Of a DNA stretch of 64,000 bases, positions 5,496 through 62,900 are shown piece by piece. The position numbers were made by a program, and so were the translations under genes. Below the pieces are notes generated by a model. It did no database searches and was not told the DNA's origin. It saw nothing but the letters and a program-made list of their open reading frames with translations. This stretch comes from Oceanospirillaceae bacterium (GTDB taxonomy: Bacteria > Pseudomonadota > Gammaproteobacteria > Pseudomonadales > Litoribrevibacteraceae), in the NCBI GenBank assembly GCA_015665455.1, contig JADFAD010000005.1, forward strand, positions 62,001 to 126,000. Direction: 5' to 3'. The first letter of the stretch is position 1, and every line of letters starts with the position of its first letter.

Positions 5496-7439
5496 TTAAC
5501 GAGTCGCCCAAACACAACCATTATCATCATTAGGAAAGCTTTCATCCAAGTACGTTAGAACTGATTCATCACTTTCAACACCTTGATCAAACGCGATGCG
5601 GTCAATGTAGGTGTCCGTTGTTTCTAGGGAGATAACAAGTTCATTTGCTACAGGGTTAATGACTTTCACCCATTGCCACAAAGTACTGTAACTGAAGTCA
5701 TGTATGACGCCATCCATTGAGAAACGATTTTGATACTGGGGGTTATCCGTACATATTCTTAACCAAGCAGAGGTCATGTTGGCAGGTATTTGAGCGGTTA
5801 AGTTATAATCTTTTCTGCTTCTTCTTTCGTCCAGATTTCTCCAAGTAACAACAACGCCTTCTCCATCTTGCTCATCGTTTCCGTCGAGACCATTTCCTAC
5901 GTCTTGATATTCTGCTTCCACAATGATCGGATCTGTAGTTGGAAGATACCCTCCGTTTTCATCCTTCGATGCCCAAGCACAATAACTGGCGGGGTATAAA
6001 TCATTTAAATCCGTTGCTGACGTTCCACCATCGGTAAACGCTATTCGATCTAGGTATGTATTCGTGGTATCAAAAGTCACTGTCAGTAAGCTTGAAACAG
6101 CAGGTACTTCTACCCATTGCCAATGGTCACTGTATGAGAAAGAGAACTCCACATTGTTCACAGTGTATTTATTATGACTGCGATTCGGATTGTCCGTGCA
6201 CACTCTTAACCAAACACGATCCAGACCATCAGACATTACTGCTGTTAAAGTGTAGGCCTCCACTCCCGCTGTTCGTTCTGTTTCGTCGTCCCAGGAAACC
6301 ACCACAACTTCATCGTATTGCACATCCGTATTATCCAGTGAACTTCCAACCGATTGCGCTTCTGCCTGTACAATCAAAGGGCTTTCTGGAGGCGTCGTAC
6401 CGCCATTATTACCACCAGTGCTCGCGCCGCCATCCGGTGTCCCTTCGCCCAAACCATGTTCATTATAATGTCGATAGGAAGTTGGTTCGTTATTACCACT
6501 CAAGTATTCAGACTCACAGATTAACGAAATAAAATCGGATTTCTCACCGTATTGATAAATCACTTCTTTACTGTATAAGCCAGAACAATCATCTTCATGA
6601 TAATGATTCATCAATACCAACTTGTCTTCATTAAGAAAACTGATCAGATCCTGCTTTGGCCACCAGTGGTTGCCAATTACTCCGTTATCATCTCGCTCAT
6701 TGCCATAACTTTCGAAGGTCACACCATCCATGTATTGGCCATACACCCCTCGGGTATTTTTGGACATACATAACATGTCTTGATTACGCGTATGCTCACA
6801 CAACGCTTGCATGTAGTAGTAACCCAGCTCAGGATCAGCAATATAACCATACGTATCGCCATAATCACTGTCTTCCATCCAATCCATATTGTCATACTCG
6901 ACCCAATCACAACCAATTTGAGACAAGTAATCAATGCGCTGCTTCATGATGGGTAAAGCACCATGAATGTCTTTGATAAAATACTCGCCCTGCCATTCAC
7001 CCCATTGCTTGGTCACACTGAAGGGTTGCAGTTGAGAAAAGTCATCTCTCCAGTCTTCTGCTGTTCCGACACTGATATAACAACCGACCTCATTTCGAAC
7101 GTCTTTGGTGTCTTGTTTTGCCTTAATTTCGGTAATTTTATTGGTTACTTCTGTTTGATTGCCAGTTAATTCAAAAGGGTCAATAAGGACGTAGCATCCT
7201 GCCGCATTATCAAGAATGTATTGATAACTGTCGTTGTTCCAATTTTCTTGATAGGCATGGTTATAGACGCATCGAGATTGATTGATATTGCTTCCATCCA
7301 TAGGAGACATAATGGTGTTTGCATATCCACCTTCTGACTCCAAACTAACCAACAGCAAAAACAGAAACACGGCGAATGATTGAAACCGAAGATGGGAACC
7401 CTGCATTACTGAGCACGGATTAATCGAAACTCTTTTCAT
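5496..7439 (-). CDS. secreted GH114-type glycosidase with two C-terminal beta-sandwich-like repeats
   Basis: Predicted exported hydrolase related to endo-alpha-1,4-polygalactosaminidase (GH114), a TIM barrel that cuts galactosamine-containing exopolysaccharide. A long basic n-region precedes a hydrophobic segment (about 20-35), consistent with an uncleaved or late-cleaved signal. The barrel (about 45-325) carries GCYISVGTAEDW (about 119-130) and the acidic strand DWVEYDNMDW (about 178-187), typical of the family. A Gly/Thr/Pro linker follows, then two homologous modules of about 120 residues, each starting (I/L)IVxAE and containing WLRxCTDNP and a WQWV strand. They look like carbohydrate-binding modules but I cannot assign a CBM family. 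The ATG at 7439 is used because AAGGAG lies eight bases upstream; the GTG at 7448 overlaps that site. The gene is alone, with its own terminator. Confidence 0.85.
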   Translation of the reverse strand: MKRVSINPCSVMQGSHLRFQSFAVFLFLLLVSLESEGGYANTIMSPMDGSNINQSRCVYNHAYQENWNNDSYQYILDNAAGCYVLIDPFELTGNQTEVTNKITEIKAKQDTKDVRNEVGCYISVGTAEDWRDDFSQLQPFSVTKQWGEWQGEYFIKDIHGALPIMKQRIDYLSQIGCDWVEYDNMDWMEDSDYGDTYGYIADPELGYYYMQALCEHTRNQDMLCMSKNTRGVYGQYMDGVTFESYGNERDDNGVIGNHWWPKQDLISFLNEDKLVLMNHYHEDDCSGLYSKEVIYQYGEKSDFISLICESEYLSGNNEPTSYRHYNEHGLGEGTPDGGASTGGNNGGTTPPESPLIVQAEAQSVGSSLDNTDVQYDEVVVVSWDDETERTAGVEAYTLTAVMSDGLDRVWLRVCTDNPNRSHNKYTVNNVEFSFSYSDHWQWVEVPAVSSLLTVTFDTTNTYLDRIAFTDGGTSATDLNDLYPASYCAWASKDENGGYLPTTDPIIVEAEYQDVGNGLDGNDEQDGEGVVVTWRNLDERRSRKDYNLTAQIPANMTSAWLRICTDNPQYQNRFSMDGVIHDFSYSTLWQWVKVINPVANELVISLETTDTYIDRIAFDQGVESDESVLTYLDESFPNDDNGCVWATR

Positions 7440-7868
7440 GAACGTCACTCCTTTTGACTGTGTCTTGAGCAGACCAATTGATGGATTTTCTAAAACTAGA
7501 AAAACCGATCATCTATTTTCAGACTAGATGACATCCTTCGTCGAACACATCTACCTAAAACACGACACCAATGATAGAAAAGACTTGAGGCCTTATAAAA
7601 CAAGAAATATTTAGATCATCTGACAAAAAGACAGGACGCAATAGTACGAATTAAAGCCTGAATGTATTTAGTAAAAGAGACTAGAAACACAACGCACATT
7701 ATCCCTTCTATTCAACCCGTTCGTATTAATAGTCACCTTGAATGGAACACTATTTTTTAGCCATCGCCTCCATCCATAAAACCGTACTTACACGATAGAA
7801 CAGCCGTCGTAAAATCGTTAAACTTCCATTTAATACGGTTCTGCTCAAGAAACTAGTTAAGGAAAGCC
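7440..7868. other. intergenic region between divergent GH114 and rhomboid genes
   Basis: About 430 bp with no credible coding sequence. A short inverted repeat (ttttcta-aaac-tagaaaa, 7486-7503) sits just upstream of the GH114 start. A good Shine-Dalgarno (AAGGAAAGCC) at the right end belongs to the rhomboid gene. No promoter could be assigned with confidence. Confidence 0.5.
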
Positions 7869-9314
7869 ATGATTGTTTTGCCCACAGAGAAGCGTTTTGA
7901 TTGGAAGCATGCACCGGTCATGCTATTCAGCATTGCAATCATCAATATACTGGTATTTTTTCTTTATCAATCCGCAGATCAAAGTAAATACATCAACGCT
8001 TTAGAAAGTTATGAACATAATAATCTGCTCAGAACAGAGTGACCTGCATACCAAAACTTTTTAGACAGTCTCGACGAAAGAGAGCTTCTCAACGAGTTAA
8101 ACCAACAATTCAACAATGAGCGCTACTCAAGCATAGTGGAGTACATTGTCGGTGATGAAGCGTTCTACCAATATATCTTGAACAATGAAGAGCTACTGTA
8201 CTTCGACCCATATAAAACCAACGACGACTTTCAAAACTGGCGACGTAAAAGAAACGAAGTCGATGACTATTTCTATTCAATCAGTACATTTCAGGGAGGG
8301 CTAATTCCCGAACAACTCAGTGCTTCGACACTCATCAGTTACCAGTTTCTGCATGGTGATTTTTATCATTTATTGGGTAACCTGTTCTTTCTTATTTTCT
8401 GTGGATTTGCAGTGGAAGCCGCTCTGGGGGCATGGTTATTCTTAGGCCTTTATTTGGCTTCAGGAATCACCGGAGGACTGCTCTATACCCTGCTGGATCT
8501 GGACAGTAACATCCCTTTGGTTGGTGCATCAGGTGCGATTTCTGGTGTTATGGCCATGTATTTGGGAATTTTCAGACTACGCAAGATTGAGTTCTTTTAT
8601 TGGGTTTTCGTTTTTGCTGGCTACTTCCGCGCGCCCGCTTTGCTGGTGCTTCCTTTCTACATAGGAAAAGAGCTGTTGGATTATTTCCTTAACCCAAATT
8701 CAGGCGTTGCCTTTATGTGCCACACAGGAGGCTTTATAGGTGGCGGAGCATTAATGGCCATCTGTTATAAACTAAAACCAGAATTAATTAACAATGAATA
8801 CGTTGAAGAAAACCAAGAAGCGCCTCCTGAACGTCAATCTCTCGCCAAAATTTATACACATATTGATCAGTTTCGTTTTGAACAAGCCTTTAATGCAATA
8901 CACAAACATGAGCGCGAATACGGCAAAGAGTTTGACTTAACACTACTTCGTTTCCAACTTACTCACGCGCTGAATGAAGAAGCCCGAATAGAAAGCCTAA
9001 TTGATCTCATAAATACCCAGCCATTTACCCATCAACAGACATCCAAACTCGCTAACGCTTGGCAAGAGAGCAAAGCAATTCACAATGAACTTGATACGAA
9101 AGACACAGTTCAACTGGCAATGAATTTAATATCACCAGAACACCTTCCCCTTGTGGAAGAGATTTTTAATCGTCTCTACAGCAATAAACCAGAAGATCCA
9201 CGTTTAGTAGGCTTAGCTCAAAAGCTGGCGTTCATCTTCGAAAAACAGAAAGACAAAGGAAAAGCCAAGCAATATCAAACCATTGCAGACCACCATTCAC
9301 AGGGGAATATTTAA
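7869..9314 (+). pseudogene. rhomboid-family protease locus interrupted by an in-frame TGA
   Basis: Reading from the ATG at 7869, which has a strong AAGGA Shine-Dalgarno, gives 57 codons with a first transmembrane segment (MLFSIAIINILVFFLY). The frame then meets TGA at 8040-8042. The same frame continues without further stops to 9314 and encodes the whole catalytic rhomboid core. A TGG-to-TGA change would explain it. The base after the stop is C, a context known to be leaky for UGA, so low readthrough is possible. Alternatives are a sequencing error or a recent nonsense mutation. The downstream reading frame looks undamaged, so any loss is recent. Confidence 0.7.
8136..9314 (+). CDS. rhomboid-family intramembrane serine protease (downstream open part)
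   Basis: Multi-pass membrane protease of the rhomboid family, which cuts transmembrane segments of substrates. This open part has the H-x(4)-H-x(3)-N signature region (HGDFYHLLGNLFF), the catalytic serine S132 in VGASGAISG and the catalytic histidine H196 in CHTGGF. After the last TM (about 205) comes a soluble region of about 180 residues with helical, TPR-like character. The GTG at 8136 has no Shine-Dalgarno, so the natural start was almost certainly the ATG at 7869, upstream of the TGA. The stop codon overlaps the next gene's ATG (TAATG), so the two are translationally coupled. Loss of the first TM may impair function. Confidence 0.8.
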   Translation: MEYIVGDEAFYQYILNNEELLYFDPYKTNDDFQNWRRKRNEVDDYFYSISTFQGGLIPEQLSASTLISYQFLHGDFYHLLGNLFFLIFCGFAVEAALGAWLFLGLYLASGITGGLLYTLLDLDSNIPLVGASGAISGVMAMYLGIFRLRKIEFFYWVFVFAGYFRAPALLVLPFYIGKELLDYFLNPNSGVAFMCHTGGFIGGGALMAICYKLKPELINNEYVEENQEAPPERQSLAKIYTHIDQFRFEQAFNAIHKHEREYGKEFDLTLLRFQLTHALNEEARIESLIDLINTQPFTHQQTSKLANAWQESKAIHNELDTKDTVQLAMNLISPEHLPLVEEIFNRLYSNKPEDPRLVGLAQKLAFIFEKQKDKGKAKQYQTIADHHSQGNI

Positions 9315-10810
9315 TGTCTTACTGTAAATATCATCCTTTAAACACGGCTCAATTTAGCTGCCATGAATGTGATTGTAACCTCTGTAAACGTTGCATAAAT
9401 GAAGGTAGGAACGCATCCAAGCATCGCTGCTTCTCGTGTGAAAACGAAGTCACTTCTTTAGGCGCTGCGATCAATGTTGCTCCCTTCTGGCGACGTATCG
9501 ATCAAGCCTTTAAATACCCTTTAGCGACGGAAGTGTTGGTGATGATCGGTCTACTCTCGCTAATGACGACGCTGGCTTCATTTTTAGCACTGCCTTTAAT
9601 GGCCGCACTCAACCTCATCGGCGGCGCCATTATTATTAAATACTGCTTTAATTGTCTTTCTGCCACTGCAAAAGGAAGAATGTCACCACCCGATTTTAAA
9701 GATTCCTACGAAGGCAGTATTCTGCTCATCTTTAAATTAACTTTTATCGTAGTTGTTCTCAGCGCCATTGCGATAGCAGCTTACGCCTTTTTAAATCCCG
9801 CTTTTGGCAGTCTACTTGGCTTTTTATTGATTACGGCTTTCCCTGCAATCATCATTTTATACGCCATTACAGAGAATATATTTGAAGCCGTTAATCCGTT
9901 AAAAATTATAAGTCTCATTTTAAGGATCGGACTCCCCTATGGCCTGATTCTAGGTATTCTCTTAATCATGATTACGTCGGTTGGGATTCTTAGTGATCTT
10001 ATTATTTATAAACAAACAGCAATCACCCTAGTATTTCAGTCCGCTGTGGCTAACTATTATTTAATCGTCATGTTCCACATCATGGGATATATGATCTTTC
10101 AATATCAAAATGACTTGGGCTATTCCGCTGAAGCTGACGACCAAAACAAAGACCCTATACGCTCTGAACCGGAAAAGATTTGTGCAAAAATACATATCAT
10201 GATCAAAGAAGGTCATTGGCACCTCGTCGATGAAACATTCAAAAACGCCCTTACTCGATTTAAAGAACATCCCCAACTGAACTCCGAGTATTTTCTATAT
10301 ACATTGTCTTTACTGCCTTCTCATCCTTCTGATGCAGAAAAGCAGCAGGAAGCATGCGTGATTTTTGGCCGCTATTTCATGTTTCTAATTAAAAACCATC
10401 AGGAACACAGGTTATATGTCGATTACTCAAAAGTACTGTTAGTTATGACGCATTACCAACCTGAAGAAGCCAGATTACGCTTCGAGCTCGCAAAAACTAG
10501 CTCGGAAAATGGAAACACCAAACAAGCAGTAAAACTCCTGTATGGTTTGCATAAATCCCATCCAAGTTTTATGCATCTCATTCCTGCTTATGAGCTGCTC
10601 GCAGATGAACTTGAAACACTTCCCAATATGGAGAAACAAGTAACTCAATGTCGAAAATTAGTCTCTGCGCTTAAGGAGCGAAACCCCACAGACTTGATCC
10701 CAAATGAAGCCGTCGAAGAAACGTCAAATGGAAAAGAAACAGACAATAGTTTGGATGACTATCAGAAAACTGAAAATAAAGGCTTGGCTCCCATCGAGTA
10801 CAAACCTTAG
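9314..10810 (+). CDS. zinc-finger (B-box-like) multi-pass membrane protein with TPR-like tail
   Basis: Unnamed 498-residue protein. The first about 45 residues hold Cys/His pairs in a B-box or RING-like pattern (CKYHP, CHECDCNLCKRC, HRCFSC) that probably bind two zinc ions. Then come about five or six transmembrane segments between residues 70 and 275. A cytoplasmic helical tail of about 200 residues resembles TPR repeats (for example ARLRFELAKTSSENGNTKQAVKLLYGL). It overlaps the rhomboid stop by one base, so both are made from one transcript and probably work together, for example with this protein as substrate, adaptor or partner. That role is inference. A hairpin terminator follows within 10 bp. 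Confidence 0.8.
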   Translation: MSYCKYHPLNTAQFSCHECDCNLCKRCINEGRNASKHRCFSCENEVTSLGAAINVAPFWRRIDQAFKYPLATEVLVMIGLLSLMTTLASFLALPLMAALNLIGGAIIIKYCFNCLSATAKGRMSPPDFKDSYEGSILLIFKLTFIVVVLSAIAIAAYAFLNPAFGSLLGFLLITAFPAIIILYAITENIFEAVNPLKIISLILRIGLPYGLILGILLIMITSVGILSDLIIYKQTAITLVFQSAVANYYLIVMFHIMGYMIFQYQNDLGYSAEADDQNKDPIRSEPEKICAKIHIMIKEGHWHLVDETFKNALTRFKEHPQLNSEYFLYTLSLLPSHPSDAEKQQEACVIFGRYFMFLIKNHQEHRLYVDYSKVLLVMTHYQPEEARLRFELAKTSSENGNTKQAVKLLYGLHKSHPSFMHLIPAYELLADELETLPNMEKQVTQCRKLVSALKERNPTDLIPNEAVEETSNGKETDNSLDDYQKTENKGLAPIEYKP

Positions 10811-22464: not shown

Positions 22465-22541
22465 TGGTACACCCGAGAGGAGTCGAACCTCTAACCGCTC
22501 GGTTCGTAGCCGAGTACTCTATCCAATTGAGCTACGGGTGC
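22465..22541 (-). tRNA. tRNA-Arg (ACG)
   Basis: A 77-nt cloverleaf on the minus strand: acceptor GCACCCG/CGGGTGT, anticodon loop CTACGAA (anticodon ACG, wobble A normally edited to inosine), T-loop TTCGACT, encoded CCA. Identical to the next two copies. Confidence 0.97.
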
Positions 22542-22584
22542 ATCTAAAGGCAAAAGCCTAAGTTCAAAACTATGAAGGTATAAA

Positions 22585-22661
22585 TGGTACACCCGAGAGG
22601 AGTCGAACCTCTAACCGCTCGGTTCGTAGCCGAGTACTCTATCCAATTGAGCTACGGGTGC
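22585..22661 (-). tRNA. tRNA-Arg (ACG), second copy
   Basis: Same 77-nt sequence as the copy at 22465-22541, with anticodon ACG and encoded CCA. It is separated from its neighbours by 43 and 81 nt. Confidence 0.97.
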
Positions 22662-22742
22662 AAATTCGGAATCCTTCCGAGACACTACATTTTAATCTAA
22701 CCCTATAGGTTATTCGTTAACATTTCACAGTAGAAGATGAAA

Positions 22743-22819
22743 TGGTACACCCGAGAGGAGTCGAACCTCTAACCGCTCGGTTCGTAGCCGAGTACTCTAT
22801 CCAATTGAGCTACGGGTGC
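22743..22819 (-). tRNA. tRNA-Arg (ACG), third copy
   Basis: Same 77-nt sequence again. It is the first tRNA-Arg after tRNA-Ser in the direction of transcription. Confidence 0.97.
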
Positions 22820-22882
22820 ATAACGCGGCCGGTATGTCTCTGAAATAAATCCAAAAAGTATTTATTTCGTTCCGGCATAAAA

Positions 22883-22972
22883 TGGCGGAGAGAGAGGGAT
22901 TCGAACCCTCGATAGGGGTAAACCTATACGCCCTTAGCAGGGGCGCGCCTTCAGCCACTCGGCCATCTCTCC
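22883..22972 (-). tRNA. tRNA-Ser (GCT)
   Basis: A 90-nt type II tRNA with a long variable arm on the minus strand: acceptor GGAGAGA, anticodon loop CTGCTAA (anticodon GCT, reads AGC/AGU), T-loop TTCGAAT, encoded CCA. The csrA-tRNA-Ser-tRNA-Arg order is the same as csrA-serV-argVYZQ in E. coli. Confidence 0.97.
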
Positions 22973-54772: not shown

Positions 54773-57403
<2,631 letters not shown>

Positions 57404-59932: not shown

Positions 59933-62900
59933 TCATATGTCAGAATTTCGATACAATATCTCTACACGTTCGTGACCAAATTCAGATCTAAGTAAACTGA
60001 CACTTTGATCATCGGGCGCGAGCTTCCAATCATCTCCCAAGCGAATCCGTCCTCGAGCATCCACGCGTTGATAGTCAACTAAAACGGGAACCCCTTCAGG
60101 ATTAAACGACAAGTCACCTTTAGTAAGCAACTTATTAAATGCATCGGAATCTTTAGACTCATTCAACTGAACACGAATATATTTTGCATATTTTGTACGA
60201 GCGCGCCCAATATCAATAAGAGATTTTACACGACACCGAATGCCTTCCGTGTAATAGTCGTAGCTGACATCCACTTCAGCTACAACCAACATATCAGTTT
60301 CTAGCCAATCTTTATTCTCAGCGTACATATCACCGAACAACCCAATTTCAACACGGGCTGTTCGATCGTCCAGAGCAAGAAACGCCAAGGTATCGCCCTT
60401 CTTACTTTGCATTGTACGAACATCCATAACTAAACCAGCAATGATGTAAGACTTACTTTTGTCAGCCTGCAATGCAGATAAACGACATGTAACAATTTCT
60501 TTAACTTCTGATTCATACTCTTCGATGGGGTGACCCGTTAAAAACAGTCCTAACGTGTCCTTCTCTTTAGATAACTTCTCTTTTGGTGACCACTCTCGAA
60601 TATGACGATATTCTTCATAAACATCACGATCAGTATCTTCAGCCTGCAGTTCGCCGAACATATCGACCATTCCAGCATCCTGATTTTTGGCAGACTGATC
60701 CGCTGATCTGACTGCATCAGGTATCGCAGCCAACAGTGAAGCCCTGTTAGGGCTGACATTATCAAAAGCACCGCAATAAATAAGAGACTCGAGTGTTCGT
60801 TTATTTACTTTCTGAGTTCCAACTCGCTCACAAAAATCAAAAAGATCTAGAAACGGCCCATCTTGACGAGCGGATAAGATGGCTTCAACAGGCCCCTCAC
60901 CCACACCTTTAACAGCACCAAGCCCATACACAACTTGATCCTGATCGTTTACGGTAAACTTGAATTCCGATTGGTTAATATCAGGCAGTACCAAACTCAA
61001 CTTCATTTCTCGACATTCTTCAATAAAGATTACGACCTTATCGGTCTTATCCATATCAGAAGAAAGTACTGCAGCCATAAAAGCTGCTGGGTAATGAGTC
61101 TTCAACCAAAGCGTTTGATAAGAAACAATGGCGTAAGCTGCTGAGTGAGATTTGTTAAAACCATAGCCCGCAAACTTTTCAACCAGATCGAAGATATTCA
61201 TGGCCAGATCAGGATCAACCCCTTGAGAAATTGCGCCTTCTCGGAATGTCCCTCTTTGTTTCGCCATTTCTTCAGGTTTTTTCTTGCCCATCGCTCGACG
61301 CAACATATCTGCACCACCCAGCGTATACCCGGCGAGCTCCTGCGCAATCTGCATTACCTGCTCTTGGTAAACAATGACACCGTAGGTAGGATCAAGAATT
61401 TCTTTTAAGCATTCATGCTGGAAGTCAACGTGGGGGTAAGCCACTTCAGCACGGCCATGCTTACGATCAATAAAGTCTTGTACCATGCCTGATTCAAGAG
61501 GTCCGGGGCGAAACAAAGCAACCAAAGCAATCAAATCTTCGATATTATCCGGTTGAAGGCGTCGAATAAGATCTTTCATTCCTCTGGATTCAAGCTGAAA
61601 TACAGCCGTCGTTTCTGCTCGTTTAAGAAGAGCAAATGAAGCAGGATCATCCAACGGAATTTGGCTGATATCTACGGGATCTAAACCTTCTTTCTGTCGC
61701 TTAGTATTTAAAGTTTTTAATGCCCAATCAACAATAGTCAGGGTTCTCAAGCCCAAGAAGTCAAACTTAACCAAGCCAGCTTCTTCAACATCCCCCTTAT
61801 CAAACTGCGTTACCACCCCTGTCCCATCAGGGTCACAGTTGACAGGCGAAAAATCCGTCAATTTAGTTGGGGCAATTACAACACCACCCGCGTGCTTACC
61901 CGTACCTCGGGTTATCCCTTCAAGTTTTAACGCCATGTCCCAGATTTCTTTGGCATCATCGTCTGTAGAAATAAACTCTTTCAGTTCTGCTACTTCTTCA
62001 ATTGCATCTTTGAGCTTCATTCCTGGCGTCGGAGGAATTAACTTGGAAAGTCGATCAGCAAGACCGTAGGATTTACTTTGAACACGAGCAACATCACGAA
62101 CCACCGCTTTAGCAGCCATGGTGCCAAACGTAACAATCTGAGAAACCGCATCTTTACCGTAGTGATCAGCCACGTATTTAATAACTTTATCTCGATTATC
62201 CATGCAAAAATCGATATCAAAATCGGGCATCGAAACACGTTCAGGATTAAGAAATCGTTCGAACAGTAAGTCGTATTCAAGCGGATCAAGGTCAGTAATT
62301 TTCTGGGCGTAAGCCACTAAAGAACCTGCACCAGAACCACGCCCAGGACCTACAGGGATATCGTTATCTTTGCCCCATTGAATAAAGTCCATTACGATCA
62401 AAAAATACCCAGGAAACCCCATTTGCAGAATAATATCGAGTTCAAAATCCAGACGATCAAAGTACTCTTTACGTCTCTCTTGATAATCTTCAGCCTCTTT
62501 ATCAAGAATAACATCAAGCCTTTCTTCAAGCCCTTCCGCTGAAAGTTCACGGAAGAACTGATCCATTGTTTTTCCTTCAGGTACAGGAAATTCAGGCAGA
62601 TAATACGTGCCAAGCTTCACTTCTAGACTGCAACGTTTTGCAATTTCGACTGAGTTTTGTAACGCGCTTGGAATGTCAGCGAACAACTCAGCCATTTCTT
62701 CTGGAGATTTAAGGTATTGCTCTTCTGTATAATTAAGAGGGCGACGAGGATCAATCAAAGCAAAACCTTGGTTAATACAAACACGAGCTTCATGTGCTTC
62801 GAAGTCAGAAGAATTGATAAACCGCACATCATTAGTGGCAACGACGGGAAGTCTAAGCTGCTCTGCGAGCTTCAATGAGCCATGAAGGTTTTCATCATCC

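Follow-up and report, generated by a model that had tools for sequence, protein, structure and literature searches.

A probable recent nonsense substitution at codon 58 of a rhomboid protease gene from an Oceanospirillaceae bacterium

We identified an in-frame TGA at codon 58 of a rhomboid protease gene in an Oceanospirillaceae bacterium (assembly GCA_015665455.1, contig JADFAD010000005.1). The gene lies in a stretch of 64,000 nucleotides that was analyzed as a whole and is referred to here as the window (contig positions 62,001 to 126,000). Apart from the stop, the sequence is that of a normal gene for a rhomboid intramembrane protease, one that carries an L1 insertion and has TPR-like repeats at its C-terminus. 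The stop is absent from its orthologues, being found in none of 40 distinct relatives and in none of 81 other matches that span the codon, as is expected of a pseudogene. We consider it probable that a recent nonsense substitution, likely TGG to TGA, has occurred at codon 58 and that the gene now gives little or no product; this and the other likelihoods expressed below are our own judgement.

The features of the region are listed in Table 1. A preliminary description of the locus had the frame running from a well-placed ATG to the TGA after 57 codons and staying open beyond it, with the catalytic serine and histidine in frame, and all of this holds. The open part ends at a TAA (9312-9314) that has one base in common with the ATG of the downstream partner gene, and the chance of 423 codons without a stop is p = 7e-12 given the local base composition. 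The frame also contains H167 and N171 of an HxxxN motif. Judging from the N-terminal segment, which is of the same type in relatives, the ATG at 7869 is the family start. Of 28 clear genes that we selected from the window, four end in TGA, which thus functions as a stop here. A codon-usage scan of the window for other interrupted frames gave a single flag, at 55654, which we read as two adjacent genes sharing one frame; the scan is low in power because the rhomboid itself scores near zero. Relatives of the rhomboid gene were found neither among plasmid sequences nor among viral contigs, so there is no sign of a mobile copy. The one match to Rfam between 7000 and 11000 is snoRNA-like, falls under the cut-off, and was taken as chance.

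Table 1. Features of the interrupted rhomboid gene and of the adjoining partner gene, in window coordinates
Feature	Position	Strand	Remarks
Shine-Dalgarno-like AAGGA	7859..7863	+	precedes family start ATG 7869
Rhomboid N-terminus, 57 sense codons	7869..8039	+	conserved start segment, TM1 (about residues 15-34), start of L1 insertion
In-frame TGA, codon 58	8040..8042	+	next base C; relatives: TGG 15/40, other sense codon 25/40, stop 0/40
Post-stop open frame, 423 codons	8043..9311	+	rest of L1 insertion, TM2-TM6, C-terminal TPR-like helical repeats (about residues 320-478)
Rhomboid Ser221 codon	8529-8531	+	in GASG
Rhomboid His285 codon	8721-8723	+	in TM6
GTG, codon 90	8136..8138	+	earliest in-frame start past the TGA; product without TM1
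Shine-Dalgarno-like AGGGG	9301..9305	+	precedes partner gene
Partner gene, uninterrupted	9314..10810	+	8 zinc-type ligands, about 6 TM helices (predicted), TPR-like C-terminus

The part of the frame from position 8136 onward matches the Pfam family Rhomboid (PF01694) with E = 2.4e-23 (83.4 bits compared with a cut-off of 22.6). The catalytic serine of the GxSG motif (S221) and the TM6 histidine (H285) are identical in all 41 aligned rows. The six-TM core is not contained in one open frame: the TGA separates TM1 from TM2-6, and the core is whole only with readthrough. The predicted structure of the read-through protein has a mean pLDDT of 82.8 and a pTM of 0.57, with residues 240-260 below 50. 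Residues 9-303 of this model align with E. coli GlpG (chain 91-272) over 169 residues at 2.8 A (VIA-align Z 17.3), which would put residues 15-34 at the position of TM1 given the helix limits that we assumed for GlpG. A sequence profile matches GlpG homologues at E 3e-4. With Foldseek alone, neither the read-through model nor the model of the partner protein had a match at E 0.001. Assignment to the rhombosortases (TIGR03902) was rejected at 33.5 bits, compared with a curated cut-off of 84.

The six-TM core with HxxxN, the GxSG serine and the TM6 histidine are shared with the GlpG-type rhomboids (PF01694). The protein described here differs from them by an L1 insertion of about 100 residues and by the C-terminal TPR-like repeats, and this copy differs further in being interrupted by a stop between TM1 and TM2. 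The pseudoproteases iRhom1 and iRhom2 also match the read-through model in fold (Z 14.0-16.0). In both iRhoms a large domain separates TM1 from TM2, and they are known to lack the catalytic serine that is retained, with the histidine, in every row of our alignment. A second rhomboid is encoded elsewhere in the same genome (L033, G000 C2:851155-851589). It has no internal stop, is 38% identical over the core, and might soften the loss of the interrupted copy.

Relatives were collected by a scan of genome contigs, which gave 31 loci, by a search of 56 genomes, which gave matches in 23, and by a search of 390 genomes of the order. The alignment was built from 45 loci with long frames, namely nine of the 31 from the contig scan, seven from the 56-genome search, and 29 from the 390-genome search. 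Five of these duplicate other loci exactly and were removed, so that 40 distinct proteins remained, or 41 rows with the window copy; 22 of the contig-scan loci and the loci L041-L057 of the 56-genome search (weak or core-only matches) do not enter the codon count. The codon aligned with the TGA is TGG in 15 of the 40 relatives, encodes alanine in 13 and other residues in 12, and when the relatives are ranked by tblastn identity, all 15 with TGG are in the top 20. Ten kinds of residue occur in this column, while the preceding residue, E57, is identical in all 41 rows. The only codons of relatives that lie one step from TGA are TGG and a single CGA (L039). On this comparison an origin of the TGA from TGG, as had been proposed, appears most likely. 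However, TGG is not universal at codon 58; 25 of the 40 relatives have another sense codon.

The search of 390 genomes gave 102 matches at 1e-30. The codon is spanned by 82 of these, in 81 genomes, and among all 102 an internal stop occurs in the window copy alone. A TGA common to all relatives, which would have spoken against a nonsense change, is thus excluded for those examined. The only other genome of the family in the set has a weak match to the core (E 1.4e-15) and nothing at 1e-30. Neither the species nor the genus is represented in the set by a second genome, and the TGA is therefore known from one assembly. An internal TAA was seen in another genome, in locus L056 (G019 C11:489579-490064). 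This locus is a weak match (E 1.5e-6) to a different rhomboid and is not an orthologue of the interrupted gene.

The closest relative, L001, is 50% identical to the window rhomboid and served for comparison of rates. After the stop, with five outgroups, the window copy has 27-35 unique changes and L001 has 30-40 (chi-square at most 0.56). For the 57 codons that precede the stop the corresponding numbers are 7 and 1 with outgroup L034 (chi-square 4.5) and 5 and 1 with L003 (chi-square 2.7), and the other three outgroups gave chi-square values of 0.1-0.8. When post-stop columns that are otherwise invariant were compared by leaving one sequence out, the window copy departed at 2/80, 1/67 and 1/33 columns in three sets, and L001 at 3/81, 1/67 and 0/32. 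In 4000 runs of a simple neutral simulation the median number of changes to a further stop was 19, and 95% of the runs had acquired one by 80 substitutions (6.3% of sites); the 423 codons after the TGA contain no further stop. The absence of excess change relative to L001, together with the lack of another stop, means that the TGA is young or that the frame is still in use. The sequence comparison suggests that the nonsense change is young, and in this respect the recency put forward in the preliminary description finds support. However, the intact catalytic residues and the open partner gene would fit a gene in use as well as a recent loss. Young age and continued use are not separable by dS because synonymous sites are saturated in seven of eight comparisons with four relatives; pN is lower than pS both before and after the stop.

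In the most probable course of events, a normal rhomboid gene has undergone one nonsense substitution at codon 58, most likely TGG to TGA. Translation would then stop after a 57-residue peptide containing only TM1, and the lineage would be left with little or no active enzyme. If full-length protein is made at all, its source would be the usual low rate at which tRNA-Trp misreads UGA. Such misreading would insert tryptophan, which is what most of the closest relatives have at this position. The downstream partner is uninterrupted and is preceded by a ribosome-site-like sequence of its own. As a broken gene the locus would be ordinary, since in-frame stops in bacterial genes under purifying selection are reported to be frequent but short-lived (PMC7918605). 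The stops in that survey resemble the present one in lying within conserved frames, but the survey centred on stops whose position is shared by two or more species, whereas ours is seen in one genome. If the gene is broken, it may represent a natural near-knockout of one partner of a pair that co-occurs in 80 of the 81 genomes with a spanning rhomboid.

A leaky UGA had also been proposed, and it is plausible that the stop leaks at the ordinary level of UGA. We think it unlikely, however, that misreading as tryptophan yields a useful enzyme and that the stop acts as a dosage valve. In E. coli reporters tryptophan is favoured at a misread TGA, and at one tested position readthrough ranged from 0.7 to 6% according to the stop (PMC11126739). 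In favour of this reading, tryptophan would restore the residue of most of the closest relatives, ten kinds of residue occur at position 58, and in-frame stops are argued to be frequent, if short-lived, in genes under purifying selection (PMC7918605). Against it, the TGA is found in none of the relatives (40 aligned; 82 spanning matches including the window copy), whereas programmed readthrough would lead one to expect its conservation. The RNA from 8030 to 8110, a single stretch of 81 bases, is no more structured than shuffled sequences (z = -0.36). The following C, which had been offered as a hint of leakiness, is a weak cue, as the reported effect of this base on UGA in bacteria is mixed (PMC11126739, PMC5289835). 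A pattern search, which finds tRNAs near the usual form only, gave a single tRNA-Trp, in which the anticodon is CCA and base 24 is the ordinary G, and a changed anticodon was accordingly rejected; its other match is a tRNA-Arg. Position 24 of tRNA-Trp has a role in the reading of UGA. Selenocysteine was rejected because all matches in the genome to SelB (best 173.4 bits compared with a curated cut-off of 242.25) and to tRNA-Sec (best 44.5 compared with 47) fall under the cut-offs; ARAGORN identifies the near tRNA-Sec match as tRNA-Ser(tga). We found no mark of programming. Three tRNA-Arg(acg) genes and one tRNA-Ser(gct) gene lie in a row at 22465-22972 on the minus strand of the window.

It is possible, if rather unlikely, that the TGA is a base-calling or assembly error and that in the strain itself codon 58 is a sense codon and the gene is intact. 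A single base would account for the stop, the sequence beyond it shows neither another stop nor excess change, and the open partner gene is usually accompanied by an uninterrupted rhomboid. Many annotated internal stops in public assemblies are reported to be assembly errors (PMC11017572). However, the genome is listed with 100% completeness, 0.46 contamination and 17 contigs, and at 1e-10 internal stops are found in none of 48 ABC (PF00005) and none of 104 response-regulator (PF00072) domain matches. Stops are thus uncommon in this assembly, although these 152 control matches together span fewer than 20,000 codons, a set too small to exclude a single error. Exceedingly improbable, in our view, is a restart at GTG 8136 or later, giving a second half that functions by itself or together with the 57-residue TM1 peptide. 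The frame from GTG 8136 has 392 open codons, and GTG 8412 (codon 182) and TTG 8454 (codon 196) are preceded by GGA and AGG, respectively. However, the 20 bases ahead of GTG 8136 contain no Shine-Dalgarno-like sequence, and its lack of a ribosome site had been remarked earlier; none precedes TTG 8178 or TTG 8373 either. The products of GTG 8412 and TTG 8454, which sit beyond most of TM2, would lose most of that helix as well. The 40 bases past the stop contain no ATG, GTG or TTG in any frame, and an out-of-frame GTG at 8039 overlaps the TGA. Furthermore, of the 83 matches in the 390 genomes that extend at least to model position 355, 82 start no later than position 14, and the exception (L100, genome G219) keeps the TM1 segment and lacks the L1 insertion. 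Annotation from GTG 8136 would mask the stop and call a TM1-less protein an intact protease. The exceptional locus (L100:1694-2884) encodes a rhomboid with TM1 segment and core, and a convergent partner gene adjoins it.

The partner gene forms a lead separate from the stop. Eight zinc-type ligands (C4, H7, C16, C19, C24, C27, C39 and C42) are invariant in nine aligned members, and six of the nine match zf-B_box (best 9.6e-5) and six TPR_14 (best 8.6e-9). The partner protein of the window itself has only matches below the cut-offs (ANCHR-like B-box 0.029; TPR_20 0.087). The structural model and hydropathy point to about six TM helices. VIA-align matched the partner model mostly to TPR proteins (Z 10.3-11.8), which we take to reflect a common repeat fold.

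Within the flanks examined the partner adjoins the rhomboid in 35 of the 40 distinct loci, in the same direction in 22 and convergently in 13. The pair was seen at 7869-10810 of the window and at L001-L009, L034-L040 and L070-L099. Both genes are present in 80 of the 390 genomes, a spanning rhomboid only in one, the partner only in four, and neither in 305 (Fisher p 3e-77, without correction for shared ancestry). The partner lies within 4 kb of the rhomboid for 65 of the 82 matches, and in most of the other 17 it is on another contig. Two of the four partner-only genomes have a compact or divergent rhomboid adjoining (L100 and L102), and a third has no rhomboid within the 5 kb examined (L101); flanks were covered for these three, the fourth being G070. 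The nearest system that we found is Bacillus subtilis YqgP, in which a rhomboid core is likewise joined to a C-terminal TPR domain (PMC7231995). YqgP has an N-terminal cytosolic domain, unlike the rhomboid described here, and the part of that paper used here mentions no B-box-like partner. In open-access literature, at the level of titles and abstracts, we found no paper on such a pair, which appears otherwise little described. The chances seem very slim that the two genes form an undescribed two-protein membrane system whose protease half is kept at low dose by a leaky UGA restoring the tryptophan of the relatives. On the other side of the rhomboid, the upstream neighbour (5496-7448, minus strand) encodes a glycoside hydrolase family 114 protein, the C-terminal part of which, on inspection by eye, appears to contain two segments that resemble each other.
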